In this document: positions 43,535 to 64,000 of the stretch, in pieces | How the letters are laid out: each line of letters opens with the position of its first letter | Numbering within the stretch: the stretch's first letter is position 1 | Position numbers and translations under genes: made by a program | The notes under the pieces: model-generated | The model's database searches: none | Seen by the model: only the letters and a program-made list of their open reading frames with translations | What the model was told of the DNA's origin: nothing | NCBI GenBank assembly: GCA_022828105.1 | Contig: JAJEJC010000009.1 | Coordinates: 1-64,000 of the forward strand | Source: Dehalococcoidia bacterium | Lineage (GTDB): Bacteria; Chloroflexota; Dehalococcoidia; Bin125 | Reading direction: 5' to 3' | DNA length: 64,000 bases

Positions 43535-44566
43535 CTACGCCTCGATCCGTTCAATCCGGCCCGAGTCGAGGTCGAGCGTGACCACGCTGGTCTGGAGTTG
43601 CTCGCGGTAGGTGTCGTGCGTCTCCCCCTCCTGGACCAGCACCATTTCCTTCGTGGTGCGTCCCTTGACCAGCACGCGCGACTCAGGGGTCTCCAGTTCG
43701 AGGTTGTCGAGGAAGCCGGCCGCGACGAGCATCGCCAGGTGCCCTTTGCGCAAGGGCATCAGGGGGCGCGCGGTCTGGTCCGTGGGCGGCCAGAACGCGT
43801 CGGTGATTTCGTCCTGGGTCCAGAGTCCGCGCGAACGGGCCTCGGCCACGGCCTTCTGGAAGTCGATCACCCGGGTCGTGAACATCGCCGCGCCGGGCGG
43901 CGAGAGGCGCACGTCGTAGACGGGCCGCAGGTCCGAGCGCAAGGGCGGGAGATCCTCGATGCCTTGAAGCAGCGCGTTCATCGCCCGCGCGTCGGGGCTG
44001 GGATGCTCCTTGCGCTCACCCAGAACCACGACCTGGTCGAACTGTTCGATCTCCGGTTCGGGGAAGGCCCAGGCCTGGACCTCTGCGTAGTTGGTCGTCA
44101 GGAAGCGCGCCGATCTGGCGATCTGGGCGCGCGGGACGATGTAGACCAGCACGCCTCCCGGCTCCAGGTAACGGCTGCAGTGCGTCAGGAACGAGTGCTC
44201 GACCCGCTTGTCCTCCTGGTCGTGGTCGTAGGGCGGGTTGAGCCAGAGCAGGTTGAACGTGCGGTTGGCGATCGAGCAGCGGAAGAGGTCGCTCGACAGC
44301 ACGTGGTCGAGTTGCTCCGCCGCCTGTTGCGCTCGCTCAGAGTGCAGTTCCGCGCCGTAGGTCTCGACCGGGACGCCGCGCCCCAACGAGTCGGCCAGCT
44401 GGCGCAGGGCGTCGCCCGGGCCGCAGCAGGGGTCGAGCAAGCGCATCACGTTGCCGCGGTTGGCCCGGCCCCAGACGGGGTAGGGCGCGAGCAGCGTGCG
44501 GATCAGGTCGACCACGCGCGGCGGCGTGGGGTAGAACCCTCCCTTGGCTTGTCCGGCGAGTCTCAT
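43535..44566 (-). CDS. Class I SAM-dependent DNA methyltransferase (DUF6094-like)
   Basis: This 343-residue protein starts at ATG 44566 (MRLAGQAKGGFYPTPPRVVD). It has SAM motif I MRLLDPCCGPGDALRQLADS (about 40-58) and catalytic motif IV LLWLNPPYDHDQED (about 110-123), then FLTHCSRYLEPGGVLVYIVP. The NPPY tetrapeptide is that of N6-adenine and some other amino-methyltransferases. Similar stand-alone enzymes occur in conjugative elements, where they protect incoming DNA from host restriction. Here that host repertoire would include McrBC and the BglII-like system in zone 1. It overlaps the upstream gene by four bases (ATGA). It ends with TAG. Confidence 0.82.
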   Translation of the reverse strand: MRLAGQAKGGFYPTPPRVVDLIRTLLAPYPVWGRANRGNVMRLLDPCCGPGDALRQLADSLGRGVPVETYGAELHSERAQQAAEQLDHVLSSDLFRCSIANRTFNLLWLNPPYDHDQEDKRVEHSFLTHCSRYLEPGGVLVYIVPRAQIARSARFLTTNYAEVQAWAFPEPEIEQFDQVVVLGERKEHPSPDARAMNALLQGIEDLPPLRSDLRPVYDVRLSPPGAAMFTTRVIDFQKAVAEARSRGLWTQDEITDAFWPPTDQTARPLMPLRKGHLAMLVAAGFLDNLELETPESRVLVKGRTTKEMVLVQEGETHDTYREQLQTSVVTLDLDSGRIERIEA

Positions 44567-44745
44567 TCGGTGTCCTTTCGTTCGGTGTCGGCTTCGACGA
44601 GGCCGAGCAGGTGTTCTTCGAGCTCTTCCGCGATCTGGGCGATCTGCCAACTCGACTCCTGGGGTTGGAGCCACCAGCGGGCCGTTTCGTCTATGCCCAG
44701 GCGGACCGTGACGATGATCTCGTTGTCGTCGGGTGCTTCGGTCAC
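44563..44745 (-). CDS. Small acidic protein, 60 aa
   Basis: MTEAPDDNEIIVTVRLGIDE begins a strongly acidic short protein containing RWWLQPQESSWQIAQIAEEL and ending ERKDTE. It overlaps genes on both sides by four bases, proof of a tightly coupled operon. Highly acidic small proteins can mimic DNA (anti-restriction), but no known family matches. Confidence 0.55.
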   Translation of the reverse strand: MTEAPDDNEIIVTVRLGIDETARWWLQPQESSWQIAQIAEELEEHLLGLVEADTERKDTE

Positions 44746-44933
44746 TCGGATTCCTCCCCGTACTGCTCCAGCAGGTGGAGCAGGTGATCGTGGATGTCCT
44801 CGTGGAACTCGCCCTCGATCTCCGGGCCGTCTTCGGCCAGGTCGAAGTTGTAGACGGCGGTGATTTCCTCACCGCAGATTTCGTCCTCGCCGGCGCGGGT
44901 CTCGACCGTGACGGTCACAAATCGGTCGCTCAT
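44742..44933 (-). CDS. Small acidic protein, 63 aa
   Basis: It starts at ATG 44933 (MSDRFVTVTVETRAGEDEIC). About a third of the residues are Asp/Glu (FDLAEDGPEIEGEFHEDIHD), and it ends LEQYGEESE. It overlaps both neighbours by four bases. Like the adjacent 60-residue protein it has an N-terminal beta-strand pair followed by acidic helix, so the two may be paralogues or partners. DNA mimicry is possible but unproven. Confidence 0.6.
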   Translation of the reverse strand: MSDRFVTVTVETRAGEDEICGEEITAVYNFDLAEDGPEIEGEFHEDIHDHLLHLLEQYGEESE

Positions 44934-45628: not shown

Positions 45629-46156
45629 TCAGAACAGGCCTTGCTCCTTGTGCGAGACCCAGCCGTCCGAGCCGATCACGACGTGGTCGAGCAGCTCGAT
45701 CCCGAGCAGCTCGCCGACCTCGGCCAGCGTCTTGGTCAACTTGATGTCGTCGCCGCTGGGCTCGGGGTCGCCCGAGGGATGGTTATGCACCAGAACGATG
45801 TGCGGCGCGGCCTCGACGATGGCGGGGCGGAAGACCTCGGCCGGTCGGACCAGGGCCGCGTAACCGTTGCCCTGGTAGATCGTGCGCTGGCCGACGACCC
45901 GGTTCTTACGGTCCAAGAGCAGGACGCGGACCTGTTCCTGGGCCAGGCGGCTCATCTCCTCGCCCAGGAGATCGTTGACCGTCTCGGGCCGGTAGATGAT
46001 GGGCATGTCCTCGGGTCGTTCGGGCCGGGTCTCGACCTCGTAGCGGATCGCGATTTCGCCGAGCAGTTGCAGGTTGCGGCGCAGGGCGTCGAGCAGCGCC
46101 TGGCGCTCGTCGTCGTCCGTCGAGGGAATCAGTGCGAGTTGAGTTGCGGTGGTCAT
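45629..46156 (-). CDS. RadC-like JAB/MPN-domain protein
   Basis: This 175-residue protein consists mostly of the RadC-type JAB domain. It has LLLDRKNRVVGQRTIYQGNG, then the metal motif HNHPSGDPEPSGDD (about 119-132; H-x-H...SxxD), and LLGIELLDHVVIGSDGWVSH. RadC proteins are frequent on mobile elements near SSB and recombination genes; despite the name, a repair role is disputed. The helix-hairpin-helix region of full RadC is absent, so this is the short, element-borne form. A two-hairpin element precedes it. Confidence 0.85.
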   Translation of the reverse strand: MTTATQLALIPSTDDDERQALLDALRRNLQLLGEIAIRYEVETRPERPEDMPIIYRPETVNDLLGEEMSRLAQEQVRVLLLDRKNRVVGQRTIYQGNGYAALVRPAEVFRPAIVEAAPHIVLVHNHPSGDPEPSGDDIKLTKTLAEVGELLGIELLDHVVIGSDGWVSHKEQGLF

Positions 46157-46264: not shown

Positions 46265-46630
46265 TTAGAAGGGTTGGTCGCCGGTCGAGTCCTGCCCGCC
46301 CTTGCCGTTGCCCGAGCCCAGGAAGATCACTTCGTAGGCGTGGACCTCGGTGCGGCTGCGGCGCTCGCCCTGGTCGGTCTCCCAGGTGTGGTGGTTGAGT
46401 CGCCCGGCGATGTAGACGCGCTCACCCTTGTGGACGTACTGGGCGACGGCTTCGGCCTGCTTGTCCCAGTAGACGACCGTGTGCCAGTCGGTCTGCGGGT
46501 CCTCGTTCCCGTTCCGCCGGTCGGTCGCGACGCGGAGCTGGACGACGGCCGTCCCGTTCTGGGTCTTGCGCAGCTCGGGGTCGGCTCCGACCCGGCGCAG
46601 CAGTTCGACACGGTTGATCGTGCGTGACAT
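46265..46630 (-). CDS. ssb: Single-stranded DNA-binding protein (second copy)
   Basis: This 121-residue OB-fold SSB has NRVELLRRVGADPELRKTQN, GTAVVQLRVATDR, TDWHTVVYWDKQAEAVAQYV and GERVYIAGRLNHHTWETDQG. It is shorter than chromosomal SSB and lacks the acidic interaction tail beyond GDQPF, though the last residues (DSTGDQPF) still resemble the DDxIPF tip. It is about 75% identical by eye to the neighbouring ssb, with an equally similar leader, so the pair arose by tandem duplication. It coats ssDNA during transfer or recombination. Confidence 0.92.
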   Translation of the reverse strand: MSRTINRVELLRRVGADPELRKTQNGTAVVQLRVATDRRNGNEDPQTDWHTVVYWDKQAEAVAQYVHKGERVYIAGRLNHHTWETDQGERRSRTEVHAYEVIFLGSGNGKGGQDSTGDQPF

Positions 46631-46773: not shown

Positions 46774-47154
46774 TTAGAAGGGGGAGTCCTCCGTTCCGTT
46801 CTCAGAGCGCGGTTCGCCGTTGCCGTTCGAGGCGCCCAGGAAGATCACCTCGTAGGCGTGGACCTCGGTCCGGCTGCGGCGTTCGCCGGAGTCGGTCTCC
46901 CAGCTGTGGTGGTTCAGGCGACCGGAGACGTAGACCCGCTCGCCCTTCTGGACGTACTGGGCCACGGCTTCGGCCTGCTTGTCCCAACAGACGACCGTGT
47001 GCCAGTCGGTCTGGCTCTCGGCCGACTCGTCGCGGCTGCGGCGGTCGGTCGCCAGCCGCAGCTGGACGACCGCGGTCCCGTTCTGCGTCTTGCGCAGCTC
47101 GGGCTCGGCCCCGACCCGGCCCAGCAGTTCGACTCGGTTGATCGTGCGTGACAT
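46774..47154 (-). CDS. ssb: Single-stranded DNA-binding protein (first copy)
   Basis: This is a 126-residue OB-fold SSB. NRVELLGRVGAEPELRKTQN, GTAVVQLRLATDRR, TDWHTVVCWDKQAEAVAQYV and GERVYVSGRLNHHSWETDSG are the diagnostic blocks. The short tail NGTEDSPF keeps the acidic-plus-Pro-Phe tip that recruits repair proteins. Strong ribosome-binding site GAAAGGAG. It is a paralogue of the next gene and is preceded by the same structured leader. Two non-identical SSBs may form heterotetramers or act in different steps. Confidence 0.92.
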   Translation of the reverse strand: MSRTINRVELLGRVGAEPELRKTQNGTAVVQLRLATDRRSRDESAESQTDWHTVVCWDKQAEAVAQYVQKGERVYVSGRLNHHSWETDSGERRSRTEVHAYEVIFLGASNGNGEPRSENGTEDSPF

Positions 47155-48488: not shown

Positions 48489-49442
48489 CTATCGGGCCGT
48501 TGACTGCTGCGCCTGGGCGAGCTTGTCGGCGGCCGAGGCGATCAGCGGGTTGAGTTCGGCCGGGCCGAGTTGGTCCAGCTCCCGCCCGGTCTTGTTCCGC
48601 ACCGCGGCCCGGACCTGGTCTTCCGTGAAGCCCTGCTCGACGCTCAGTTCGAGCAGCTGCTGGCGCAGGTTGCGGGCGTCGCGCTCGTCGATCGACTCCG
48701 GCTGTGAGGCCGGCTGGACAACGCGGCGCTCGGTTCGCGGCTGGCTCTCGCGTTCGGGCGCGGGCTGCTGCTGCCGCTGTGGAGCGGACTCCGGTTCGCG
48801 ATTGCCGCGGGCGTTGCTCGGCGGGTCGCCGTAAAGCCCGTTGCCGAAGCGGTCGCCGAAGCTGCGCAGGGCGCGCTTGAGCGCGTCCGTGACCGCTCCC
48901 TTGAACGCGGTCTCGTGGTCCTCGGGGGTGTCGGCGGCGACCGGCTGGAAGCCGACGTCGGTGCGTGAGGGCGCGCCCGGCACCGTCACCCGCACGACCG
49001 CTGAGTAAGCCGCCGTGCGCGTTACTTCGCCGGTACGCGAGTCGGTCTGCTCGATCGGTCGCAGGGTCACGTCGCCGACCAGCTCATACCCCCAGCCGCC
49101 AAAGCCGAAGATCCGGTTGGCCTGGTCGATCGCGGTGTGGCCCTCGATGTAGTCGAACTTGCGTCCGGCGCGTCCCTTGCGCTGCGAGATTAGCTGGGGG
49201 TCGAGGGGCTGGGCCAGCGCCTCCGTGACGCGGGGCGCGAGCGCGTCCCAGTGCAGCGCCTCGACCGAAGCCGGGGCGGGGTCGCGCTCGGCCGGGCTGG
49301 GGGAAGACGTTCGCGGGTGAGTCCTGTTCCTTCCGGTTTGAGTCGGGTTCTGTCCGTTCCTGCGAACGGCCGTCGCGGTTCCATTGCCGTTGCCTCCCGT
49401 TCGGGCCGGGGGCAGGCTGCTGCGGTGGGTTCCGTTGTTCAT
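48489..49442 (-). CDS. Rad52/Rad22-family single-strand annealing protein
   Basis: The protein has 317 residues from ATG 49442 (MNNGTHRSSLPPARTGGNGN), with AGGAGCAAGAG before it. A disordered ~60-residue N-terminus precedes the annealing core: LDPQLISQRKGRAGRKFDYI, EGHTAIDQANRIFGFGGWGY and TAFKGAVTDALKRALRSFGD with RFGNGLYG, the eukaryote-like Rad52 signature also found in phages. The C-terminal half is a Gln/Arg/Pro-rich linker and a small helical end (EDQVRAAVRNKTGRELDQLG). It anneals complementary ssDNA during recombination of the element. It is flanked by a Cas4-like nuclease and a primase. Confidence 0.88.
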   Translation of the reverse strand: MNNGTHRSSLPPARTGGNGNGTATAVRRNGQNPTQTGRNRTHPRTSSPSPAERDPAPASVEALHWDALAPRVTEALAQPLDPQLISQRKGRAGRKFDYIEGHTAIDQANRIFGFGGWGYELVGDVTLRPIEQTDSRTGEVTRTAAYSAVVRVTVPGAPSRTDVGFQPVAADTPEDHETAFKGAVTDALKRALRSFGDRFGNGLYGDPPSNARGNREPESAPQRQQQPAPERESQPRTERRVVQPASQPESIDERDARNLRQQLLELSVEQGFTEDQVRAAVRNKTGRELDQLGPAELNPLIASAADKLAQAQQSTAR

Positions 49443-49639
49443 CTCTTGCTCCTGTTCAGGTGATGGATTCGGGTGGTGGCATCCGCCGGATTCGGCGGTT
49501 GTGATGCTGTGCGTGGACTGTCCCGCACTTGATGCGGGGGCACGGTCGGTCAGGGGCCATAGGCGGCCCTTCGTCTCGTTGAGTGGGTGGGGTGGGCGGT
49601 GGAGTGGAGGCAAGGTTGGCCCCGCCTGGCTTGGCGCTG
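49443..49639 (-). promoter_or_regulatory. Hairpin-containing leader of the rad52-like gene
   Basis: The 197-bp gap between the primase stop and the annealing-protein start contains two short stems on the minus strand: CCCGCA/TGCGGG around TCAAG and CCGCCG/CGGCGG around AATC. It has no U-tract and no open frame with protein character. Confidence 0.45.
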
Positions 49640-52980: not shown

Positions 52981-53814
52981 CTAGCCGCCTAAACCCAGCG
53001 TCAACAGTCGCACGACCGAGCGGCGCAGGCGGGCTCGGCGCAGTTCCCCACGCCGCTGCTTGATGTGCCGGCGTTGCTGGTAGAGCCACCTCGACCGCGG
53101 CCCCTCGGCCACGGGGTAGTGGGCGGGCGGCATCGTCAGCCCGTGTTCCTCGACCAGGGCCAGCTCCAGTTCCAGCATCCGCAGGTGCGCCCGGTACCCG
53201 TCCAGGCTGCCCCAGTGCGCCTTGAATAATCCGCGCTGCTCGCGCCAGTCGGAGACCAGGGGCCAGGCGTCGCCGAAGTTGCGCTCGTCGTCCTCGGCGG
53301 GCTCAGTCGTAACCAGTTCTGGAAACGAGCGGCGAGGGAAGAACCGCTGCGTCTGCGAGGGAGCCGCAGCATCGGCGTCATCACCCTGCTCAGTCAGGGG
53401 CTCGGAAGCAGCCGCGGCGAGGTGACCCGCGAGTTGCCGCTCCACGTCCTGTAGGCGGCTCTCGATCGTCTCCAGACGGCGCCGCAGCTCGTCGGACGGG
53501 TTGGGGGCCTCAGCATCGTCGCCCTGTTCCAGCTCGGCGACCCGTGTCTCAAGCGCCGCCAGCCGCCGTCTGAGGCGGCCGGACATCACGGCGGGGTCGC
53601 GACTGGCCTCCGCTTCGAGCGCCTCGGACAGCTTGCGGCTGAGCTGGCCCGAGCTCACCGCTCGCCTCAGGGTGCGCTCGCTCACATCCAGCCGGCGGGC
53701 AACGGCATCCCGGCCGTCACGCTCGATCAGGTCCTGTAGGAAGCCGATCAGGCGCGCATCCGCCTGCTCGGCCCCTCCCGACACCGGCACCTGAGCGCCA
53801 TTCGTCCCTGACAT
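52981..53814 (-). CDS. Helix-turn-helix coiled-coil regulator candidate
   Basis: This 277-residue protein has an N-terminal DNA-binding-like segment (DAVARRLDVSERTLRRAVSS, about 36-55) with clear helix-turn-helix spacing. A long coiled coil follows (LRRRLAALETRVAELEQGDD, RLETIESRLQDVERQLAGHL). A C-terminal helical domain with very basic ends (QQRRHIKQRRGELRRARLRR) completes it. It is divergently placed beside the conjugation operon, and the gap between them holds four copies of a TTGTCCAAC-type motif. It is thus a prime candidate for the element's transfer regulator or partition/segregation factor. No named family is evident. It ends with TAG. Confidence 0.6.
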   Translation of the reverse strand: MSGTNGAQVPVSGGAEQADARLIGFLQDLIERDGRDAVARRLDVSERTLRRAVSSGQLSRKLSEALEAEASRDPAVMSGRLRRRLAALETRVAELEQGDDAEAPNPSDELRRRLETIESRLQDVERQLAGHLAAAASEPLTEQGDDADAAAPSQTQRFFPRRSFPELVTTEPAEDDERNFGDAWPLVSDWREQRGLFKAHWGSLDGYRAHLRMLELELALVEEHGLTMPPAHYPVAEGPRSRWLYQQRRHIKQRRGELRRARLRRSVVRLLTLGLGG

Positions 53815-53857
53815 ACGCGTCCTTTCGACGTCAAACGTACCCGAATGGCTGTGCTGG

Positions 53858-53987
53858 GTTGGACAACAGCGGCCGGTTTGTCCAACCAGCCGCGGAAATG
53901 GCCCATCCGCCCACGGCGACTCGGCTGAACCGGGTTTGTCCAGCGTTCGCCAGGTAAAACACTGGTTTTGAACCCGTTCTGTCCAAC
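53858..53987. promoter_or_regulatory. Four TTGTCCAAC-type repeats (operator/iteron candidate)
   Basis: Sites: 53858-53867 (reverse, GTTGGACAAC), 53875-53887 (GGTTTGTCCAACC), 53932-53944 (GGGTTTGTCCAGC) and 53975-53987 (CGTTCTGTCCAACC region). Sites 3 and 4 share an upstream TGAACC. They lie between the divergent regulator gene (start 53814) and the conjugation operon (start 54171). They could bind that regulator, or serve as oriT/replication iterons. Confidence 0.6.
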
Positions 53988-54069
53988 CGCCCCACCCCTC
54001 ACATTCCTGTACACGCCCCGCACCTCGAAGCGCCGATCTGTAACGGCGGGCACTGACGCCGGCGCCGGT

Positions 54070-54081
54070 GTCGCGCGCGAC
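54070..54081. repeat. 12-bp perfect palindrome in the divergent control region
   Basis: GTCGCGCGCGAC, followed shortly by CATGACGCGCGCGCC. It lies 90 bp upstream of the conjugation operon and could be an operator or part of the origin of transfer. Confidence 0.4.
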
Positions 54082-54170
54082 ATGACGCGCGCGCCCTGTT
54101 CACGGCTGCTTCGGCCGGACACACTTTCCATTGCCAATACAGAACTCACGTTCCTCTGAAGGGATGAGCC

Positions 54171-54788
54171 GTGACCGACCTTTCAATCGGAACCACCCTG
54201 CACCTGAGGGCGGCCGCAGCGGCCGTGCTGCTGCTGTGCGGCGTCATCTCGGCGTCGGTCGTCTGGCAGACCGCGCTGGCCCAGGTTCCGCCGCCGGTGC
54301 AGCCGCTCGTGATCGTCAACGACGACGAGGAGCAGCCGTTCATTGAGCGCAAGAAGCACGGTGAGTTCCGGGCCCGGCCGATCTTCTCGCAGCGGCTCTC
54401 GCGGCTGACCTACGGGATCCGGGACGCGGATTCGGGCGAGTGGTTGACGGCGATCTACCGGGTCTCGGGCGGCGAGGACGAGCGCGACGAGGGCTGGGAG
54501 TACGACTTCGATTATCCGGCGCTGGACGAGCAGCCGGAGCTCGACCCCGAGCGGACGTACCTCTTGGTGATTGCGGCTCAGGCGGTCGGGCATCCGACGC
54601 CGACGACCTTCTACGTCACGATTCCCGAGCATCAGCCGGGCGGCATCTTCAACGAGATCCTGGGCGCGCTCGATCCCAGCCGCTGGGCGCGGGCCGCGGC
54701 GGTCTGGGTGATCGAAGGCGTGCACGGGGTGCTCTGCGGGGTCCTGGAACAGTTCGCCGGCGTCGGCCTCGAGCAGTGCGAGAGGTAG
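54171..54788 (+). CDS. Exported first protein of the conjugation operon
   Basis: The protein has 205 residues. The signal peptide is RAAAAAVLLLCGVISASVVW followed by QTALAQVP. The mature protein has an acidic beta-type domain (LSRLTYGIRDADSGEWLTAI, YRVSGGEDERDEGWEYDFDY, ERTYLLVIAAQAVG) and an amphipathic end with WVIEGVHGVLCGVLEQFAGV. No family is recognised. Position as first gene, seven bases before the VirB6-like gene, suggests a periplasmic or surface component of the transfer channel. It ends with TAG. Confidence 0.65.
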   Translation: MTDLSIGTTLHLRAAAAAVLLLCGVISASVVWQTALAQVPPPVQPLVIVNDDEEQPFIERKKHGEFRARPIFSQRLSRLTYGIRDADSGEWLTAIYRVSGGEDERDEGWEYDFDYPALDEQPELDPERTYLLVIAAQAVGHPTPTTFYVTIPEHQPGGIFNEILGALDPSRWARAAAVWVIEGVHGVLCGVLEQFAGVGLEQCER

Positions 54789-54794
54789 GCCTGG

Positions 54795-55766
54795 ATGTCC
54801 GACATCATCACCGGTACGCCCGCGGGATTGACCTACGAGCACGTGCTCGTGCAAGAGGCGTGGCTCGCGGTCTGGATTGTCACTTCCGCCGCATTGGCCC
54901 TGATCATCGGTTGGATCGGCGTCTCGCTGATCCTCGAGGAACCGCTCGGCGGACGCGGCTCGGGCTGGCGCGAGCTGATCCCGAGATTGCTGCTGGGCGT
55001 GGTCGCGGCGGCCGCATCGCTCTGGTGGTGCGCCCTGGTCATCGACTTGGCGCACGCCGTCTCGGGCTTCATCGCCGCGACCCTGGATGTCACGCCCGAA
55101 GACCTGCTGCTGGCGCCCGTCAACACGTTGCTCACCGCGGTCAAGTCCGGCTCGGTCGGGATCGCGCTCTTGCTGGCCCTGATCTATCTGATCTACGCCT
55201 TCTTCTGCCTCTACCTCTTGCTGCAGATGGTGCTGCGGCTGGCCTTGATCGACCTGCTCTTGGCGCTGGCGCCGGCAGCGATGGGCCTCTGGATTCTGCC
55301 CCAGACGGCCGGCTGGAGCCGGCAGTGGCTACGCACGTTCACGACCACGGTCGCGCAGCAGGCCGTGCAGCTGATCGCGCTCGCGCTGGGCATCGGTTTC
55401 CTCGCCGAACTGGCCGAGATTCAGCCGTTCGAACCGGCCCGCGACCTCGTCTGGAAGCTGCTGATGGCGGTCGGCTTCGTCTACCTCGCGACCCGCGTAC
55501 CGAGCCTGTTGGGCAACGCCAACCCGTTCGATGCCTGGTTGCAGACGCTCTACTTCGCCTTCTCGCTGCCCATAAACGCCGCTCGCTCGGCGGGCGCCTT
55601 CGCGGCCTACGCCGGCGTCGGTTCCGCCTCGCGATCCGCCGTCAGCGGTCAAGGAGCCGCCGCCGCAACGGTCGGCGCCTCCCACGCCGCGACCACCGTC
55701 AGCGCCCCGAGCAGCAACAGCGAGACCGAGGCCTCGGGCCGCGGCCTGCGCAGCCAGAACGAGTGA
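54795..55766 (+). CDS. TrbL/VirB6-like polytopic conjugation membrane protein
   Basis: This 323-residue protein has seven or so membrane helices, among them WLAVWIVTSAALALIIGWIG, LLLGVVAAAASLWWCALVID, LLALIYLIYAFFCLYLLLQM and LRLALIDLLLALAPAAMGLW. The last of these is followed by WILPQTAGWSRQWLRTFTTT, the TrbL/VirB6 conserved block. The C-terminal ~60 residues are Ser/Ala-rich and disordered. It forms part of the inner-membrane channel of a type IV secretion system. It is co-transcribed with pilin, PrgI and VirB4 genes downstream. Confidence 0.75.
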   Translation: MSDIITGTPAGLTYEHVLVQEAWLAVWIVTSAALALIIGWIGVSLILEEPLGGRGSGWRELIPRLLLGVVAAAASLWWCALVIDLAHAVSGFIAATLDVTPEDLLLAPVNTLLTAVKSGSVGIALLLALIYLIYAFFCLYLLLQMVLRLALIDLLLALAPAAMGLWILPQTAGWSRQWLRTFTTTVAQQAVQLIALALGIGFLAELAEIQPFEPARDLVWKLLMAVGFVYLATRVPSLLGNANPFDAWLQTLYFAFSLPINAARSAGAFAAYAGVGSASRSAVSGQGAAAATVGASHAATTVSAPSSNSETEASGRGLRSQNE

Positions 55767-55855
55767 GGGGAGGGATGCCGATGTGCTGAACCGCAGCTGC
55801 ATCTCGCTTGGGATGCCTCACACCACAACCAGTCACCACAGAAAGGAACACACTC

Positions 55856-56167
55856 ATGGATGACCTGATTCAGACCATCTCCAACCTCGTCGGCATCTTG
55901 CTCGGCGTGGTCGGCGCGATCGGCGTCGGCTACTTCGTCTTCGGCGCCTACCAGTACCTGACCGCCTCGGGCGCGCCCCACCAGATGGAGCGCGGCAAGA
56001 CGGCGATGCTCACGGCGCTCGCCGGGATCGTGCTCGCGATGGTCGCCTTCGGCGTGGTCGAGCTCGTGATCGACGCCGTCGTCAACCCCAGCATCGACGT
56101 GGGCGCGCCGCCCGACCCCTCAGGTGGCAGCAGCGGCGACGGCACGCCTCCCGCGGACGGCGGCTAA
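55856..56167 (+). CDS. VirB2/TrbC-like pilin
   Basis: This 103-residue protein starts at ATG 55856 (MDDLIQTISNLVGILLGVVG) behind AGAAAGGAACACACTC. It has two hydrophobic helices (LLGVVGAIGVGYFVFGAYQY and AMLTALAGIVLAMVAFGVVE), separated by a short charged loop (GAPHQMERGKT), and a Gly/Pro/Asp-rich C-terminal tail. This is the standard plan for conjugative pilin subunits. The upstream in-frame ATG at 55808 is unlikely. Confidence 0.75.
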   Translation: MDDLIQTISNLVGILLGVVGAIGVGYFVFGAYQYLTASGAPHQMERGKTAMLTALAGIVLAMVAFGVVELVIDAVVNPSIDVGAPPDPSGGSSGDGTPPADGG

Positions 56168-56206
56168 GCCGTCGTCCAGATTCCACCTCTGGAAAGGAGG
56201 TAACCC

Positions 56207-57802
56207 GTGCACGAACACGAAGTGCCGACCCACATGCAGGCTGAGGACCGGGTGCTCTTGTGGTTCACGTTTCCGCAGCTGATCGCGCTCGCCGTCGCGG
56301 CGGCGCTGGGCTACGGCGTGTACCACTACGCACCGGTGGGCTCTGAAGCCGTGCGGATCATGCTCGGCCTGGGCGTGGCGCTGACCGGCGTCGGGCTGGT
56401 CGCGGGCAAGGTCGGCGGGCGGCCGCTGCCCGCGGTCCTGGCCGACCTGCTGCGCTTCGGCCTGGGCGCGAGCCGGTTCGCGGGACCCGTCTCGCAGCTC
56501 GCCCGCTCAGAGCCGCCGGTTCCGCCCCGAGCGGCTCAGCAACCCGCGAGCAAGCCCATGCGGCGGCCGCGCACGCGCGGCGAGCGCATGCCGCGGATCC
56601 CGCTGGGTTGGTTCCGCAAGCGCCATCAGCAGCGCGCCCGGCGCCAGGTCGATCAAGCCCGGCAGTCCGTCGCTAAGGCCCTGCGCGGCCAGCGTTTCCA
56701 GCGCTGGTCCGCGGGGCTGGGCGCGGCCGCAGTCGTGGCGGCGCTCGGAATCGTCACCTGCACCCCGCGCGGGATCGTGGCCCAGGAGCCGCACACGCAG
56801 CCGCGGCTGCCTGAGGAGATCGAGTTCGATCCCGAGCCCCTGATCGACGGGCGGCGGCTCTTCATCGAGCGGCTCACGATCACACCCTCGGAGGCCACCG
56901 TCGTGCTCAGAGCGGCGGCCGACCTCGAGGTTGACGTCCGGGCCTTTGGCGGCGTCAATGGACGGAGCCTCGTGGCGAGCCGGTCGGTTCCACTGAACGG
57001 GAGCGAGCGTTCCACCCAGCGGTTGCCGCTGAGCGGCCCCGACCCGTCGTTCACCTTCGCCTGGCTGGATGAGCACCTGCAGGGCGGCGCGCTGACGCTC
57101 TCGGCCGATCAGCTGCCCCATCCGCTGCCGGCGGTCGAGGGCGATCTCTGCGACCTGCAGCTGACCTCGCTTGAGTGGCGTCCCAGCCAGATCCGCGGCG
57201 AGGTGTCGTCAATATGCGTCGCCTCGATCGATGACCAGGTGCGGCTGCAAACCGTGGCCGGCCACGTCAACCAGACCGAGACGGTTGTCTTGAGCGGCGA
57301 CGTGCGAGCGCTCAGTGGCGCGCTGCGGGTCTCAGTGGGAAGCCGTCAGACGAGCGTCCCGCTCGTCGCGGACGGAACGACGCGTTTCCAACTCGCGCTT
57401 GAGTCCGGCGCTGGGATACAAGATGTCGCGCTCAGCGCGAACGTCACGGCCCAGCTGAACATCCCCCTGCCCGACCTGGTCCAACTGACGCACCATCCGG
57501 CGCGAACCGAAACGTTCAGCGAAACGGTCTCGTTCCCGATCCCGGATACGGAAGAGGTCGCATCACAGACTGTGACCTTCACGGTCACCCATCCGGCGCA
57601 CGTGCGCGCGGCGATGGTCGCCCGCTCGCCGTCGACCAAGTCGCGGGAGGAGCGCCTCACGCTCACAACCGTGATCGCGAGCGACGGCCCGTATGCAGCG
57701 CTGGTCGCGCCCGAGCGGCCGCCCACTGCTTCCACTCAGACGCGGGTTCCTGAGGACGAGCTCTCACAGCTGTTCGCGCAGCTCGGATGGGAGCTCAACT
57801 GA
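56207..57802 (+). CDS. PrgI-family (VirB3-like) protein fused to a membrane-anchored ectodomain
   Basis: This 531-residue protein starts at GTG, nine bases after GGAAAGGAGG. Residues 1-95 are PrgI-like: VPTHMQAEDRVLLWFTFPQL, with two helices (IALAVAAALGYGVYHYAPVG and MLGLGVALTGVGLVAGKVG). A basic linker (RPRTRGERMPRIPLGWFRKR) is followed by a third helix near 172-190 (LGAAAVVAALGIVTCTPRGI). A ~330-residue exported beta-rich domain comes next (ERLTITPSEATVVLRAAADL, SFTFAWLDEHLQGGALTLSA). PrgI alone is normally ~100-130 residues, so this is an unusual fusion. It links the inner-membrane VirB3-like component to an outer structure. The next gene starts within its stop codon. Confidence 0.75.
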   Translation: MHEHEVPTHMQAEDRVLLWFTFPQLIALAVAAALGYGVYHYAPVGSEAVRIMLGLGVALTGVGLVAGKVGGRPLPAVLADLLRFGLGASRFAGPVSQLARSEPPVPPRAAQQPASKPMRRPRTRGERMPRIPLGWFRKRHQQRARRQVDQARQSVAKALRGQRFQRWSAGLGAAAVVAALGIVTCTPRGIVAQEPHTQPRLPEEIEFDPEPLIDGRRLFIERLTITPSEATVVLRAAADLEVDVRAFGGVNGRSLVASRSVPLNGSERSTQRLPLSGPDPSFTFAWLDEHLQGGALTLSADQLPHPLPAVEGDLCDLQLTSLEWRPSQIRGEVSSICVASIDDQVRLQTVAGHVNQTETVVLSGDVRALSGALRVSVGSRQTSVPLVADGTTRFQLALESGAGIQDVALSANVTAQLNIPLPDLVQLTHHPARTETFSETVSFPIPDTEEVASQTVTFTVTHPAHVRAAMVARSPSTKSREERLTLTTVIASDGPYAALVAPERPPTASTQTRVPEDELSQLFAQLGWELN

Positions 57803-58113
57803 TGCGCCGACTTCTATCGCTGATTCCACTGACGGTGGTCGCATTCGTCACGGTCGCCGCCGCACCTGAAGAGCAGGCGATGCTCGACGCCTTCGATACG
57901 GCGCTCACGGCGGTCGCCGTGGCCGCCTCCGGCCTGGCCCTGTTCGGGCTGGTCTGGGCCGGCTTCCTGCTGATGGCCGACGGCGCATCAGAGCGCGGCG
58001 GCCGGGCCAGGGGCGCGGTCTTCATGAGCGTGGCCGGGCTCGCCCTCGCGCTCTCGGCCAAGGGCCTGGCCGCCCTGCTCGCCTCGGGCGCCATCCCGAT
58101 TCCGATCCCCTGA
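57802..58113 (+). CDS. Second pilin-like small membrane protein
   Basis: It starts at ATG 57802, overlapping the previous TGA (TGATG). The 103-residue product has a signal-like N-terminus (RRLLSLIPLTVVAFVTVAAA), a cleavage-like site at PEEQ and two further helices: VAVAASGLALFGLVWAGFLL and GAVFMSVAGLALALSAKGLA. The hydrophobic pattern and size match VirB2/TrbC pilins, so the operon may encode two pilin-type subunits. It was a likely duplication, although identity between the two is low by eye. Confidence 0.65.
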   Translation: MRRLLSLIPLTVVAFVTVAAAPEEQAMLDAFDTALTAVAVAASGLALFGLVWAGFLLMADGASERGGRARGAVFMSVAGLALALSAKGLAALLASGAIPIPIP

Positions 58114-58129
58114 CCGAACGGAGCTCACC

Positions 58130-60361
58130 ATGCGAAACCGACTCAATGTCTCAGTGCGGAAGGCCAAGAGTGAAGCGGGACCTCCCACGCCGAAGCCGCC
58201 GCCCGAGTTGCCGCTCTGCTTCATGCTCTCGCACCTTGAGCCGGAGGGTCCGGTGCGGCTGGACGGGCTCAAGCTGTCGATCATCGAGCTCGCCGGCCTG
58301 GAACTGGACGAGGCCAAGCTGGGCGCGTTCGCGGGCGCGCTCAACGCCTGCGACTTCCCCTTGCAGCTGCTCGTCCGCCAGCATCCGCCCGATCTCAATC
58401 GCTTGCGACGCGATCTCACCGAAGCCCAACCCAAACACCTGCCCGAGCGCACCCGAGATGCGGCCGACTCAGCGCGCCGCCTGCTTGCCGAGCTGGAGTC
58501 GCGGCCGGGCATCCTCGATCGGCGCTTCTACGCGATCTCCGAACGCGAACACGCCGCCGAGCTGCGCGGTGTACTCGGCCGGTCCGGCCTGACGCTGCAA
58601 CCCCTCAGGGACGAGCCGCTCAGGCGGCTCGTGATCGCGGCGGCGCTGGGCGGCACCCCGACCGAGCGCGACCCCGACGAAGCGGCCGAAGTCACGATCA
58701 AACGCGCCGAGTTCGAGCTCGACCAGGACCTGCAGCGCTCGCTGCACCTGGTCAAGTGGCCGCGCTCGCTGGTGCCCGGCTTCCTGCAGCAGCTGATGTC
58801 GACGGGAGCGCCGATGGATCTGTCCCTGCACTTGGGACCGATTCCCGCAGCGCAGGCCGCTCGCCAGCTGGAGTGGCAGAAGGTGCGCTTCGAGTCGGCG
58901 CGCTCGCTCTCTTTGAGACGCGGCAAGACGCTCTCGCCGGAAGCGGAGATCGCGCTTGAAGACGTGTCACGCTTGCGCAACGACATCCAGCGCGGCCGCG
59001 AGCGGCTCTTCCATGCGTCGCTCGCGATCACCTTGCACGCCCAGGACCCCGAAGCGCTGGACGAGCTGACCCAGCGCGCGTCGGCCCACTTCGCGGCCAG
59101 CTTGGGCCAGCTCGGTCCGCTGCCCTTCCGCCAGCGCGAGGGCAAGCTCTCGACCATGCCGCTGGCGCTCAACGCGGTCGCCGCCTGGCGCACCCTCGAT
59201 ACATCATCGGTGGCCCGCTGCTTCCCCTTCTCGCCGCCCGACCTGGACACCCGCTCGGGCGCGCTGGTGGGCATCGACCTCCGGGCCCGCGCGCCGATCG
59301 TCTACGACCCCTGGGACGGCACGCACCTCAACGCCAACACCGCGGTCCTGGCCCGTTCCGGCTCGGGCAAGTCGTTCGCGACCAAGCTGGGCGTGCTGCG
59401 CGGCGTCTCCCGCGGCGTCGTGGCCTACGTGATCGACCCCGAAGGCGAGTACGCCGACCTGGCCCGCGCCTCGGGCGGCCGCGTGTTCTCGCCCGGCGTG
59501 CCCGGTCAGGGCATGAACCCGTTCGTGATCGACCGCGCCGACCCCGAGGAGCTGCTGCAGCGGATCGGTTCGCTGAGGCGGCTGATCGAGGTGATGGTCG
59601 GCGAGCGGCTCTCAGCGGAGCGGCGCGCCGCGCTCGATCACGCGCTGGCCAGCTACTACGCAAGCCCAAGAGAGCCTTCCGGCTTCCGCGACTTCTACCG
59701 CTTCCTCGAATCGGACGACCCGGAGGCGCTGGCCAAGCTCTTGCGGCCGTTTGAGTCGGGCAGCCTCAAGCATCTGCTCTCGGATGACGGCGACGACCTA
59801 CTCAAGCATGAGGCGCTGATCACCGTCTTCGACCTGCATCTCTTGGAACCCGAACTCAGACCCGCCGCGGCGATGGTCTGCACCGAGACGGTCTGGGCCG
59901 CCGCCGCCCGCGACCCAAGGCCGCGGCTCCTCGTGGTCGACGAGGTCTGGTCGATCATGCAGCATCCCGAGGGCGCTGCGTTCATGGTCTCGATGGCCAA
60001 GCGCGCGCGCAAGCACCGGCTGGGGCTGCAGTTCATCACCCAGGATGTCCAGGACCTCCTGTCCGAGGACACCTCGCGCACGATCACCGGCCACTCCGGC
60101 CGGGCGCTGCTGCAAAACGCCGCGTTCAAGCTGCTGCTGCAGCAAGACGCCGCCGCGATCGCCACGGTCGGCGACGCCTTCGACCTGCCCGGGGATCTCC
60201 AGCGCTGGCTGCTCTCCTGCCCGCGCGGCGACGGCCTGCTGCTCGCCCAGGGCCAGCGCTTCCCGATCCGCATCGAAGCCACGCCAGAGGAAACGGATCT
60301 GATCGACTGGCGTCCCGGCCAGCAGACACAACCCGACCAACAGAAGGGAACCCCCTCATGA
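58130..60361 (+). CDS. virB4: VirB4/TraC-type conjugation ATPase
   Basis: This 743-residue protein has a ~400-residue N-terminal domain, then the motor. Walker A is ARSGSGKSFATKLGVLRG (about 407-424), with YVIDPEGEYADLARASGGRV following, the VirB4 hallmark. Walker B is LLVVDEVWSIMQHPEG (about 601-616), followed by GLQFITQDVQDLL (motif with Q). It energises pilus assembly and substrate transfer at the cytoplasmic face. The start is ATG 58130, with GGAGCTCACC before it. It overlaps the coupling-protein gene by four bases. Confidence 0.92.
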   Translation: MRNRLNVSVRKAKSEAGPPTPKPPPELPLCFMLSHLEPEGPVRLDGLKLSIIELAGLELDEAKLGAFAGALNACDFPLQLLVRQHPPDLNRLRRDLTEAQPKHLPERTRDAADSARRLLAELESRPGILDRRFYAISEREHAAELRGVLGRSGLTLQPLRDEPLRRLVIAAALGGTPTERDPDEAAEVTIKRAEFELDQDLQRSLHLVKWPRSLVPGFLQQLMSTGAPMDLSLHLGPIPAAQAARQLEWQKVRFESARSLSLRRGKTLSPEAEIALEDVSRLRNDIQRGRERLFHASLAITLHAQDPEALDELTQRASAHFAASLGQLGPLPFRQREGKLSTMPLALNAVAAWRTLDTSSVARCFPFSPPDLDTRSGALVGIDLRARAPIVYDPWDGTHLNANTAVLARSGSGKSFATKLGVLRGVSRGVVAYVIDPEGEYADLARASGGRVFSPGVPGQGMNPFVIDRADPEELLQRIGSLRRLIEVMVGERLSAERRAALDHALASYYASPREPSGFRDFYRFLESDDPEALAKLLRPFESGSLKHLLSDDGDDLLKHEALITVFDLHLLEPELRPAAAMVCTETVWAAAARDPRPRLLVVDEVWSIMQHPEGAAFMVSMAKRARKHRLGLQFITQDVQDLLSEDTSRTITGHSGRALLQNAAFKLLLQQDAAAIATVGDAFDLPGDLQRWLLSCPRGDGLLLAQGQRFPIRIEATPEETDLIDWRPGQQTQPDQQKGTPS

Positions 60362-62895
60362 GACTCAACCCACTCCACCTCTTCCACCGCGAGCCGCCCG
60401 AGCCTGTGCTCTTGGCGGTCAAGCCACCGCGCTCGGGCCAGCGCACCCTGCTCGGAGTCGAGAACCTGCTCCAGGCGCTGGCCGGGAGCGAGCCCTTTGC
60501 GCTGGAACTCGCCTCGGGCCGCGAGGGCGTGCGGCTGCTGGTGCGCAGCCGCTCAGAAGCGCTCGTGCGCGGACAGATCGGCTCACACTATCCCCAGGCG
60601 CGAATCGAGGAGCTGCCCGTAGAACGAGATCCGCTGCACGTGCGCGATCGTGAAGATGTCTGGTCGATGACGCTCAGAGCGTCCGGGCCGGAGTACCTGC
60701 CGCTGCGCCTGTTCAGCGACCGCGACCTGCTTGATCCCGGCTCCGATCCGCTCTTGGCCCCGATCGGCGCGCTCACGGGGCTCGAGCCGGGCGAACGGAT
60801 CGTGGCCCGACTGCGCCTGCATCCGCTGCCTGCGGACTGGTCGCGTCCCTACCAGGCGCTGGTCCAGCCGTCTGAGCAGCCAGCGCCCGCTCCAAGCAGT
60901 CACTACCAGTCCAGGAACGGGCCCGAGCCGTTCGCGCTGGCTGTCCTCGGGCTGGCGGGCTTGGGCGCCTTCCAGGGCTACACCTGGTTTGCGGCGGGCG
61001 AGATCTGGAGCCTGACCGCGCTCTGCGCCAGCGTCGCCGCTGCGCTGATCGGCGGCACCTGGGCGCGCCGCCGCTGGAAGCGCTCGCGCCAGCGCGTCAT
61101 CGATCCCCAGCTGGTCAAGGAGAAGATCTACCGAGCCGCGTTCGCGGCCGACCTGGAGCTGGTCGCCGTCCTGCCTGAAGGGACTCCGGCCGAGCGCGCC
61201 CAACAGCTGCTCGAACGGGTCGCGACCGCCTACCGCCACTACGACCATCCGCAGGGCGCGCAGTTCGTCGCCTCAGAGCCGGTCAAGCTGTCGGCCTTCG
61301 AACCTAGTCTGACGCCGCGCCCGGCGGGTCTGTTCGCGAGGCGCAGCGTGCTCGGCGTGCGCGAGGCGGCCGCGCTCTGGCATCCGCCCGGCGCCGTGGA
61401 CGAGACGCACGAACTGGCCCGCGCCGGGGCGAAGTCGCTGCCGCCGCCGACGGACGCGCTGCGCGAAGACGCCCTGGTCGGCGACTCCACCGGCGACGAC
61501 CCGCGCCCGATCCACTTCCCCCGCGACCTCACCCGCCGCCATCACCTCTACGTGGCCAGAACGCGGATGGGCAAGTCGACCCTGATGCGGCACCTGGTTG
61601 CGCACAAGCTGAGCGAGAAGGCCGCCGGCCGCGACCGCGACGCGATCGTGGTCGTTGACCCGCACGCCGATCTCACCGCAGCGATCCTGGAGCAGACGCC
61701 CGAGTCGCTCGCCGACCAGGTCCGCCTGATCGACCTCGCCGACGAGCGCGGCGCGGTCGGGATCAACCTGCTCGATGCGCACGTGTTCACCGACCGGGAC
61801 CGGACCGCCGACGCCGTGGTCCGGGTCGCGCGCGGGCTGTGGGAGCAGTGGGGTCCGCGCATGCAGTCGATCCTCGAGCAGACCGTGAAGACGCTGCACG
61901 AAGCCAACAGCCATCCGCTGACCGAACGCGACCAGCAGCACACGATCCTGGACGGTCTGCGGCTGCTGGGCGACGACCTGTTCCGGGCGGGCGTGCTGTC
62001 CCGCGTCAGCGACTCCTACCTGCTCGACTGGTGGGCGCGCGACTTCGGCGGCTGGCGCAAGGAGTATCGCGCAGAAGCGCTCGCGCCGGTCCAGACGCGG
62101 CTCAACTACTACGCATCCTCGAAGCGCGCGCGAGCGATCCTGGGTCAATCCCGCTCCACGATCGACCTCCGCCGAACGATCATCGACGGCGGCATCCTGC
62201 TCGTCTCGACGGCGCAGGGGTCGGTCGGACGCGATGTCGCGGCCCTGGCCGGCGCTTCGCTGCTCAACCTGGTCGACTCCGTGTTCCGCGAACAGGAGCG
62301 CATCCCGCATGCCGACCGCCGCGGCGCGCTGGTGGTCGTCGATGAGATGCAGACGATCCCCGGCGTGCCGTTCGAGTCGATGCTCTCCGAGCTGGGCAAG
62401 TACGGCGCCTCGTTCGTGCTGGCGACCCAGAGCCTGGCCAAGCTGGACGATCTCTCGCCGACGATGAAACACACGCTCTTGGCCAACACCGGCTGCCTCT
62501 GCGTCTTCCAGGTCTCGGGCGCGGACGCCCGCGAACTGGTCTGGGAGCTGGGCAAGGAGCGGCTCACGGAGGAGGACCTGGTCGGACAGCCGGCGCATCA
62601 CTGCTACGTGCGGGCCTCGGTCGGCGCTCAGCGCCTGCCCGCGTTCTCGATGACCGTGCGCAAGCCCGAGCCGGGCGATCCCGAGCTGGCCCAACGCATC
62701 CGCGAGGCCGCTCGGGCCTACACCACCAACCACGAACAGCTGGCCGCGCAGCAGGCCGAGCGCCAACGCCAGGTCGAACGGTTCCACCAGGAGCTTGCCG
62801 CCGCAACCGAGCAGACTGCCGCCGCTGCGGCCGAGCCGAAGCCGAAACCGAAGCCGAAGCGCGTGCGCAGCCGGCGCATGGAGCGATCCGCATGA
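60358..62895 (+). CDS. VirD4/TraG-like coupling ATPase
   Basis: This 845-residue protein has two N-terminal membrane helices near 195-240 (FALAVLGLAGLGAFQGYTWF and SLTALCASVAAALIGGTWAR) and an AAA+ ATPase domain. Walker A is ARTRMGKSTLMRHLVAH (about 399-415), then VVVDPHADLTAAILEQ. Walker B is LVVVDEMQTIPGV (about 658-670), with FVLATQSLAKLDDL following. The C-terminus is a Gln-rich helix and a Lys/Pro tail. It should bring the relaxosome to the channel. DUF87/HerA-like features put it in the coupling-protein family of Gram-positive-type elements. It overlaps its neighbours on both sides by four bases. Confidence 0.88.
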   Translation: MRLNPLHLFHREPPEPVLLAVKPPRSGQRTLLGVENLLQALAGSEPFALELASGREGVRLLVRSRSEALVRGQIGSHYPQARIEELPVERDPLHVRDREDVWSMTLRASGPEYLPLRLFSDRDLLDPGSDPLLAPIGALTGLEPGERIVARLRLHPLPADWSRPYQALVQPSEQPAPAPSSHYQSRNGPEPFALAVLGLAGLGAFQGYTWFAAGEIWSLTALCASVAAALIGGTWARRRWKRSRQRVIDPQLVKEKIYRAAFAADLELVAVLPEGTPAERAQQLLERVATAYRHYDHPQGAQFVASEPVKLSAFEPSLTPRPAGLFARRSVLGVREAAALWHPPGAVDETHELARAGAKSLPPPTDALREDALVGDSTGDDPRPIHFPRDLTRRHHLYVARTRMGKSTLMRHLVAHKLSEKAAGRDRDAIVVVDPHADLTAAILEQTPESLADQVRLIDLADERGAVGINLLDAHVFTDRDRTADAVVRVARGLWEQWGPRMQSILEQTVKTLHEANSHPLTERDQQHTILDGLRLLGDDLFRAGVLSRVSDSYLLDWWARDFGGWRKEYRAEALAPVQTRLNYYASSKRARAILGQSRSTIDLRRTIIDGGILLVSTAQGSVGRDVAALAGASLLNLVDSVFREQERIPHADRRGALVVVDEMQTIPGVPFESMLSELGKYGASFVLATQSLAKLDDLSPTMKHTLLANTGCLCVFQVSGADARELVWELGKERLTEEDLVGQPAHHCYVRASVGAQRLPAFSMTVRKPEPGDPELAQRIREAARAYTTNHEQLAAQQAERQRQVERFHQELAAATEQTAAAAAEPKPKPKPKRVRSRRMERSA

Positions 62896-64000
62896 GTCCG
62901 CTCAGCGCCCAGACCGACCTGCTCCGGCAGCTGGCTCACACTCCACTTGCGGACCGCAGCGAACTCGCCGCGCTCAGCGGCTGGTCGCCGTCCGCCGTCT
63001 ACGGCTGCGTCGCCCGGCTCGAACGAGCGGGACTGGTGGAGCACGTGATCCATGCCTCGCCCTCAACGCCGGCCACGAGGCGCTACTGCCTCAGCGCCGC
63101 CGGCGTCCGCTTGTTCGCCGAGGATGCCGGCATCGGCTTGAGCCGAACCCTGGCCCAACACCCGGTCTCGAACGAGTGGCGGCGGCTCCTGGTGCAGCGG
63201 CTCGACACCGCCGCCCTCCTCTACCGCACCGCCATCGAGATCAGCGAAACGGAGTATCCGCTGCGCTTCCGCTGGTACCGGGCGCAGCCGCTGGACGCGG
63301 CGGTGGAGCTGCCCGACGGACGCCGGATCGGGCTCGCCCGGATCGGCCGCACGTCGGACCGCACCGCGATGGCCAAGCGGCTCGGCCGACTCGGCGACTC
63401 CGTCGGAGGCGGCGCGGCGCTGATCATCCTGCCCGATCAAGTCCGGCTGCGCCACGCTCGCCGCATCTTGCGCGGTTCCGCAGCGCTGGCGTTCCTCGGC
63501 CTAGTGGCGCAGGTCGTGCGCGCCGACCCCAGCGCCGCGCTCTGGCAGATTGCGTCCGGAGGCGCGCGCTTCAGCCTCGCGGAGGCGCTGAGGCACGTAA
63601 CAGCGTCGCCTCCGTCGATCACTGAACGCCCGCTGGCGAAGGTGTCGGTGCCTCGGCCGCTCGGGCGGTCGGAGGCGCCGGCGCTCACTCGCAGCGAACA
63701 GCGCGCGCTCGACCTGATCGGCGACTGGCCCTGGCTGCGGCCCGTGCATCTCGCCAATCTGCTCAACTGCAGCCCACGCCGCAGCCGGCAGGCGCTGAGC
63801 CGGCTGCGGCGTCTCGATCTCGTGGTTCGGCGGTTCGCCGCCGGGCAGCCACGGCTGGCGCTGTCCGACGCCGGAATCTCGCGGCTCGCCCGCCGCGACC
63901 GAGCCTCGGTCGCGATCGCCAGACGGCGTTGGAGCGTCGAGTCGGTGGAGCGTTCCTCGCCCTCATCCTGGCGGGACGTGAACGGGGCCCGTTCGCGGCA
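62892..64000 (+). CDS. Replication-relaxation family protein (partial, runs off the window)
   Basis: It is open from ATG 62892, inside the upstream TGA (ATGA), to the window end with no stop: about 369 codons visible. The N-terminus is a winged helix (LADRSELAALSGWSPSAVYG, RLERAGLVEHVIHA, RRYCLSAAGVRLFAEDAG). The middle region matches replication-relaxation proteins, which initiate rolling-circle-like replication or strand separation in plasmids and elements. A second winged helix appears near 275-335 (LRPVHLANLLNCSPRRSRQA, LSRLRRLDLVVRR). It is usually encoded next to the coupling protein, as here. A true relaxase may lie beyond the window. Confidence 0.78.
   Translation, partial: MSPLSAQTDLLRQLAHTPLADRSELAALSGWSPSAVYGCVARLERAGLVEHVIHASPSTPATRRYCLSAAGVRLFAEDAGIGLSRTLAQHPVSNEWRRLLVQRLDTAALLYRTAIEISETEYPLRFRWYRAQPLDAAVELPDGRRIGLARIGRTSDRTAMAKRLGRLGDSVGGGAALIILPDQVRLRHARRILRGSAALAFLGLVAQVVRADPSAALWQIASGGARFSLAEALRHVTASPPSITERPLAKVSVPRPLGRSEAPALTRSEQRALDLIGDWPWLRPVHLANLLNCSPRRSRQALSRLRRLDLVVRRFAAGQPRLALSDAGISRLARRDRASVAIARRRWSVESVERSSPSSWRDVNGARSR

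Follow-up and report, generated by a model that had tools for sequence, protein, structure and literature searches.

The window, the stretch of 64,000 nucleotides analysed here from a Dehalococcoidia bacterium, contains at positions 53815-54170 a region between two divergently oriented units. An HTH regulator is encoded on its left on the reverse strand, and a conjugation operon begins on its right with a GTG start codon at 54171, both as placed in the preliminary description of this DNA (Table 1). The four TTGTCCAAC-like copies reported there, one of them inverted, are likewise found at 53858-53987, copies 3 and 4 following the inverted pair as direct repeats 58 and then a further 43 bp on. 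Two conserved features had been missed, namely a core and a longer dyad whose sequence varies. Genes for primase zinc-ribbon and Toprim, Rad52-family and helicase proteins lie to the left of the region. The DNA-processing cluster includes genes of the Rad52/22 family (48489-49613), RadC (45629-46156) and a DUF6094 methyltransferase (43535-44872), as well as two adjacent and mutually similar genes (46265-46630 and 46774-47154) whose products, from sequence alone, read like single-strand-binding proteins.

Table 1. Features of the regulator, the divergent region and the transfer operon (positions in the window)
Feature	Position	Strand	Remarks
Regulator, candidate relaxosome accessory protein	52981-53814	-	N-terminal HTH, long helices, conserved C-terminal region
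Inverted pair GGTTGGACAA - 11 bp - TTGTCCAACC	53857-53887		Copies 1 and 2; 10-bp arms
Motif copy 1 (TTGTCCAAC)	53858-53866	-	Exact match
Motif copy 2 (TTGTCCAAC)	53878-53886	+	Exact match
Motif copy 3, TTGTCCAGC	53936-53944	+	
Conserved block GGTAAAACACTGG	53953-53965	+	About 40 bp left of core; core-anchored alignment, read by eye
Motif copy 4, CTGTCCAAC	53979-53987	+	Site of the element-specific dyad left of the core in other elements
Core ATTCCTGTACACGCC	54003-54017	+	Proposed relaxase recognition/nic region
Degenerate palindrome (GACGCCGGC/GCCGGTGTC and CGCGCGCG...CGCGCGCG)	54055-54093		Contains 54070-54081; centre in relatives about 64 nt after CCTG start
12-bp palindrome GTCGCGCGCGAC	54070-54081		
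CACACT, within conserved CANA[CA]T	54120-54125	+	Possible -10 box of the transfer operon
First transfer-operon gene	54171-54788	+	GTG start; no Pfam family
Transfer operon	54795-62895	+	TrbL/VirB6-like, T4SS pilin, PrgI-like, second pilin-like, VirB4, coupling protein (T4CP)
Replic_Relax (PF13814; MOBC-type) relaxase candidate	62892-64000	+	538 aa, extends past the window end to about 64508

The first product of the transfer operon is probably of a secreted type, given its hydrophobic N-terminus, and the TrbL, PrgI and second-pilin matches are below the curated cut-off. Relatives of the VirB4 protein occupy at least 72 distinct loci, the nearest among the matches listed being L039 (96% identical). 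They are located on MAG contigs titled Dehalococcoidia, Chloroflexi/Chloroflexota or SAR202 cluster, and on one titled Gammaproteobacteria.

The AlphaFold2 model of the regulator (mean pLDDT 81.8, pTM 0.46, 29 sequences) has helices at residues 13-33, 35-42 and 46-55. The last of these is the recognition helix in the model and is preceded by S45 (S45-E46-R47-T48). The DNA-binding part is all-helical, with the HTH at residues 13-55 and no ribbon-helix-helix fold, and neither Pfam nor NCBIfam returned a ribbon-helix-helix family for this protein. From its sequence pattern we assume the HTH to be Fis-like, i.e., to resemble Fis-type HTHs, and the long helices are taken as a coiled coil. No Pfam HTH family matched the regulator at E 0.01; at the same threshold, NCBIfam gave nothing for the regulator, the first operon gene, the relaxase candidate or a 174-aa protein. 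PHROGs gave nothing for the regulator or three further proteins to its left, and Foldseek with the regulator model nothing at E <= 0.001. A Pfam PilJ hit (23 bits versus a cut-off of 26.6) that covers residues 60-138, i.e., the long helices, was disregarded. Homologues of the regulator were present in 18 of 100 relatives (E <= 0.001), and a profile search recovered it from 35 of 393 genomes of the class, representing 11 of 226 genera (E <= 1e-8). tblastn at E 1e-3 found no homologues in plasmids, and none of 29 pattern stretches in viral contigs was a relative.

The relaxase candidate matches PF13814 with 32.4 bits (curated cut-off 25.3; 31 bits in the genome search), a family given as MobC in Table 1 of PMC5357655. 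No PF03432 relaxase was detected in the genome. Residues 6-52 of the candidate match MarR_2 (E 3.2e-6), i.e., an N-terminal winged HTH, and a model of the L039 copy (pLDDT 91.5) contains winged-HTH parts; VIA structure matches of up to Z 14.1 fall mainly on the second wHTH (residues 262-339). MOBC relaxases are related to PD-(D/E)XK nucleases (PMC12857230). Foldseek with the relaxase model found nothing at E <= 0.001 and weak matches to such nucleases (Cdn1, XisH, PaqCI) at E 0.02-0.05. P423-D424 and E441-x-E443 (L039 numbering) are invariant in 28 homologues of the candidate. Mean column identity is 62% for the relaxase candidate as compared to 35% for the regulator.

Allowing at most one mismatch, the motif occurs 15 times in the window versus a shuffle mean of 6.24 (sd 2.52), and none of 100 shuffles reached 15. 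The exact 9-mer has 16 copies in the 2.74-Mb genome, two of which lie here, 20 bp apart. We also applied a blind repeat statistic, defined as the best 10-mer family with one mismatch on either strand and compared with dinucleotide shuffles of the region. The four copies were equalled by 2 of 400 shuffles with 10-mers and by 43 of 400 with 9-mers, and four or more copies of a 10-mer family were counted in 8 of 179 segments of 356 bp tiled over the window, the region itself included. By these counts the repeat by itself is suggestive and no more; taken alone, the four copies are moderately unusual, and it is the comparison across elements that makes them convincing. The nearest relative, G013, keeps all four. 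Between G013 and the window, 1 of 44 motif-block positions has changed versus 27 of 356 region-wide (one of them a gap), a difference that is not significant (Fisher 0.13).

The core ATTCCTGTACACGCC has no other exact copy in the 2.74-Mb genome. Of the 39 regions delimited by a regulator and the first T4SS gene, 36 contain TGTAC[AG][CG], in one copy each; the count becomes 33 of 36 when the three elements that carry two locus ids (L010/L039, L018/L043, L021/L077) are counted once. The exceptions are L069, with a one-base variant, and L080 and L098, with none. A search for the degenerate core in 20 genomes of the family yielded 28 matches in 9 genomes, and the reversed control yielded none. Reading the tables by eye, we found 23 of these matches to adjoin a regulator, a broken regulator or remnant, a T4CP gene or a relaxase-like gene, some of the remnants being weak matches (E 0.001-0.005 for G009 C8:22934). 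Three others look like chance (G014 C5, G006 C3:167653, G011 C24) and two have no clear assignment (G009 C8:37916, G011 C21:4145). The extended core, searched as 21 exact bases, was absent from the viral contigs, and the core matched none of the nic sites that could be checked. We regard its TCCTG|T as resembling MOBP nic sites. Block GGTAAAACACTGG is common to the window and to elements with a relaxase-like gene divergent from the regulator; another block, GTCCAG..GGACTGGAGATC, lies at about the same distance left of the core. Many elements additionally have an element-specific dyad about 10-40 bp from the core, such as CGATTGCACTCTGCAATCG (L164), TTGGACAACTGTCCA (L095), GTGGACAAATGTCCAC (L082), ACTTCCCTTTTGGGAACT (L053) and ACTTGCATTTCTGCAAC (L102). 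The window's counterpart at this site is a single copy, CTGTCCAACC, and some regions, e.g., L061 and L056, have no clear dyad beside the core.

The 12-bp palindrome that had been pointed out to the right of the repeats is indeed present, but it is not a conserved feature, as G013 differs from the window at two of the 12 positions. The longer dyad was analyzed in 25 aligned regions of the window's operon type, whose rows are partly related. Its best-scoring copy, an inverted repeat located between CCTG and CANA[CA]T, is centred 63.5-66.5 nt from the CCTG start in 19 of them, and for 16 of these 19 no more than 5 of 100 simple shuffles gave a repeat as good; in the window, L039, L061, L071, L072 and L081 the best-scoring copy is not centred there. 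Pairing holds in 74.5% of cells versus 34-57% in slid controls. The covariation score is 0.475 versus 0.09-0.23, with double changes in 19 of 21 pairs, some lean being expected because the structure was taken from L095. The sibling elements keep the shape of the palindrome more than its sequence; in the window and in its nearest relative the palindrome is degenerate. Single-strand folding of the window's 138-nt stretch (z -0.95) and of L091 (z -0.86) was no better than that of shuffles; L095, L044 and L053 reached z -5.3, -4.1 and -3.7. The palindrome was rejected as an intrinsic terminator, none being detected in 53750-54250, and Rfam gave nothing over 53000-55000 at E <= 1. In every one of the 25 aligned sequences, CANA[CA]T follows the CCTG start by 106-114 nt; the distance is exactly 108 nt in 14 of them and 114 nt in the window.

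The repeats were compared with the recognition helix in 52 regions, 47 of which have a core in the available DNA and 34 of which are non-redundant, using the 200 bp left of the core. For the SER class, defined by the helix start [SN][EPD]xT (S-E-R-T or alike), the counted word was TGTCC/GGACA, in two or more copies. It was found in 10 of 12 SER-class regions versus 2 of 22 others (Fisher 2.8e-5, with shared ancestry among the SER elements left in); the SER-class regions L020 and L030 have a single TGTCC each. TGTCC is part of the TTGTCCAAC-type motif and also ranked top of 512 words for this class in an unsupervised 5-mer scan. For two helix classes, the words chosen by eye differed from the top words of that scan, which were CGACA/TGTCG for the tyrosine class, not the TTGCA picked by eye, and AGGGG/CCCCT for the DRKT class. 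L082 (SDKT) and L095 (SPRT) carry TGGACA-2 bp-TGTCCA dyads, and the C-terminal parts of their regulators are nearest to NNKT/NHKT and DRKT/SYRT regulators, i.e., to other helix classes. Conversely, L102 (NYRT) and L092 (DHRT) have C-terminal parts that are 74-76% identical and regions that are otherwise alike, yet their repeats differ.

Three predictions fixed beforehand were then applied to 37 regions from 16 further genomes. Seven regions already used (L168, L171, L173, L174, L177, L193, L203) and two without a helix (L194, L204) were left out, so that 28 remained; one of the new regions, L186, lies in a tandem regulator pair. The strict core was found in 14 of the 28 and, after post hoc relaxation at the first base of CYTG, in 23. 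None of the 28 regulators belongs to the SER class and the main TGTCC rule was therefore checked negatively only: of the 23 new non-SER regions that contain a core, 19 have at most one TGTCC and four have two. The rule linking tyrosine-class helices to TTGCA failed (5/8 versus 7/15; by hand count, 4/5 versus 4/9 with the strict core). Three or more TGCCC were counted by hand in all four new DRKT regions versus 3 of 19 other new regions, which is a later observation. The helix-motif link thus appears good for the SER class and suggestive for the DRKT class, and there is no simple or general code. For the window's helix class, repeats or dyads beside the gene track the recognition helix in their sequence, which supports the earlier proposal that the region is a set of operators to which the adjacent HTH protein probably binds. 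The companion expectation, that the motif would recur in intergenic regions of related elements, was borne out beside regulators with similar helices, which have TGTCC repeats, but other repeats occupy the same place where the helices are different.

Related Dehalococcoidia/Chloroflexota elements share a layout in which element-specific repeats and a near-invariant core separate the gene of a divergent HTH regulator from the start of a transfer operon; where the operon order is that of the window, a palindrome of variable sequence is also included. This layout is constant though the gene after the core changes, being the first T4SS gene, a relaxase-like gene (e.g., L013, L017, L025, L029, L165) or the coupling-protein gene (L164, L167). 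No regulator was seen for L152 or G009 C8:37916, and L158 ends at a contig end.

Several individual loci are of interest in their own right. Two reverse-strand cores of different type (488 and 286) lie about 200 bp apart in L151 (G011 C21:1-10000), followed by a relaxase-like fragment, and possibly mark the place where two elements were joined close to their cores. A further ORF (1143 aa, 4656-8087) separates the regulator of L151 (8166-8956, apparently frame-broken) from the core module (4160) and looks like an insertion between parts that are neighbours elsewhere. Genome G009 has ten core matches (L149, L154-L156, L161-L163) and is crowded with element copies or remnants, including several truncated regulators. 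A Type ISP-like restriction-modification protein is encoded downstream of the transfer operon of L111 (9372-12536; contig C6 about 69371-72535). In L164, L167 and L158, the operon behind the core starts directly with the coupling-protein gene, and L152 and L161 encode a distant Replic_Relax protein (about 30% identical). Together they are possibly mobilizable elements that bring along both a T4CP and a MOBC-type relaxase of their own, a combination noted in plasmids (PMC5704250).

We propose, with about even confidence, that the region is a composite control site in which the regulator's operators serve at the same time as accessory sites of the relaxosome, and the core forms the recognition/nic region for a MOBC-type relaxase. 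Briefly, the divergently encoded HTH protein would bind the TTGTCCAAC repeats as a dimer or higher oligomer, a step that we infer strongly, and the bound protein would control its own promoter and probably also that of the operon. The core ATTCCTGTACACGCC would be recognized and nicked by the element's Replic_Relax relaxase. The repeat-bound regulator would act as a relaxosome accessory factor that gives each element its own oriT identity, core and relaxase remaining constant. The palindrome about 64 nt past the core start in sibling elements, degenerate in the window, might be a second oriT or leader element; our guess is that it serves relaxase docking or forms a hairpin in the transferred strand. 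A constant core with a constant relaxase, next to variable repeats with a variable HTH protein, is the picture expected of an oriT with an element-specific accessory factor. The oriT suggested in the preliminary description is accordingly matched in anatomy, that is, in position, in a near-invariant core with adjacent element-specific sites and in a relaxase-family gene within the element, and the oriT role itself is plausible. The two cores 200 bp apart in L151 and the ten core matches in G009 count against it.

The main rival is a serious one, to which we assign a substantial probability somewhat short of even. It holds that the HTH protein is only an autoregulator, repressor or activator acting on divergent promoters, that the core is part of a promoter or the operator of a second regulator, and that oriT lies elsewhere. 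The module nearly always sits beside a regulator or remnant and points away from it. Its linkage to the regulator is closer than that to the relaxase gene, which lies at a distance of 9 kb here, and a plain operator would be expected to show the same linkage. It heads operons of differing gene content, several copies can occur per genome, with two only 200 bp apart in L151, and the -10-like CANA[CA]T precedes the operon start by about 45 bp. However, no sigma-70-type promoter was detected in 53750-54250 (promoters of this organism may differ), and with CACACT as the -10 box the core would lie 114 nt upstream, where it is not needed as a promoter part. Conservation of the core across operons and helix classes moreover asks for a constant ligand, and the relaxase candidate is one. 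A replication origin, in which the repeats would be iterons for an initiator or DnaA sites, was also suggested earlier and seems improbable. Primase zinc-ribbon/Toprim, Rad52-family and helicase genes do lie to the left, and repeats and palindromes are usual in origins, but no DnaA box of the TTATNCACA type is present in 53815-54170 on either strand (patterns TTWTNCACA, TTGTCCACA and TTRTCCAC) and homologous regions carry unrelated repeats in place of the motif. Chance repeats without function are disfavoured and very improbable, since the helix-linked motif recurs in other elements and a specific core stands beside the repeats, even if 8 of the 179 tiled segments hold as many members of a 10-mer family.

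It is tempting to extend the composite control site to a widespread and apparently undescribed oriT family of uncultured Chloroflexota, in which a MOBC-type relaxase reads the constant core, a swappable HTH protein and its matching repeats set transfer identity, and the hypervariable palindrome at a fixed position is a second tag; we consider this wider proposal rather unlikely as it stands. Related elements crowd the same genomes, and in such a family the repeat-protein pair would keep co-resident elements from mobilising each other. If true, constant core plus regulator-matched repeats would be a signature by which transfer origins could be searched for in the Dehalococcoidia and in SAR202-type Chloroflexota, and the elements would be a natural collection of pairs of recognition helix and DNA site that shows how specificity changes in conjugative elements. 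It would also add an HTH-type accessory factor to a MOBC system. We found no paper that deals with the oriT of these elements or with the control of their conjugation, most subscription journals being outside the coverage of our search. To our knowledge, there is no laboratory conjugation model for Dehalococcoidia and SAR202-type Chloroflexota.

Most described relaxosome auxiliary proteins are ribbon-helix-helix proteins (PMC12857230). One of these, MobC of the IncU plasmid RA3, is an autoregulator that acts via a palindromic operator and also stimulates transfer, so that one protein does both jobs (PMC4175270). The candidate regulator resembles it as a predicted DNA-binding protein encoded beside a putative oriT, but RA3 MobC has a ribbon-helix-helix fold and belongs to a MOBP system (PMC4175270). 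The relaxase candidate shares an N-terminal winged HTH with the MOBC relaxases TraX of pAD1 and MobC of CloDF13, and its own nuclease fold is weakly suggested by the model. TraX binds repeats located 70-120 bp away from nic, a spacing similar to that of the palindrome or the outer repeats in the window. The accessible text on MOBC systems describes no HTH accessory protein of the kind proposed for the regulator (PMC12857230).

The closest parallel is the staphylococcal pWBG749 family (PMC8136818). SmpO variants of this family read subtype-specific sites beside the core and thereby set mobilisation specificity. Both systems combine a core with variable, subtype-specific accessory sites and encode the proven or putative accessory protein beside the proven or putative oriT, with a specificity that is out of step with the other conjugation genes; a pair of sites at a fixed distance in each oriT is a further point of agreement. 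SmpO is a ribbon-helix-helix protein, in contrast to the HTH and long helices of the window's regulator. The smpO gene is flanked by oriT and the relaxase gene, whereas the regulator gene points away from the transfer operon. For pWBG749, both binding and transfer have been measured (PMC8136818); the system described here is known from sequence comparison. By this analogy, the region would work like the pWBG749 oriT with SmpO, but with an HTH protein as the accessory factor.
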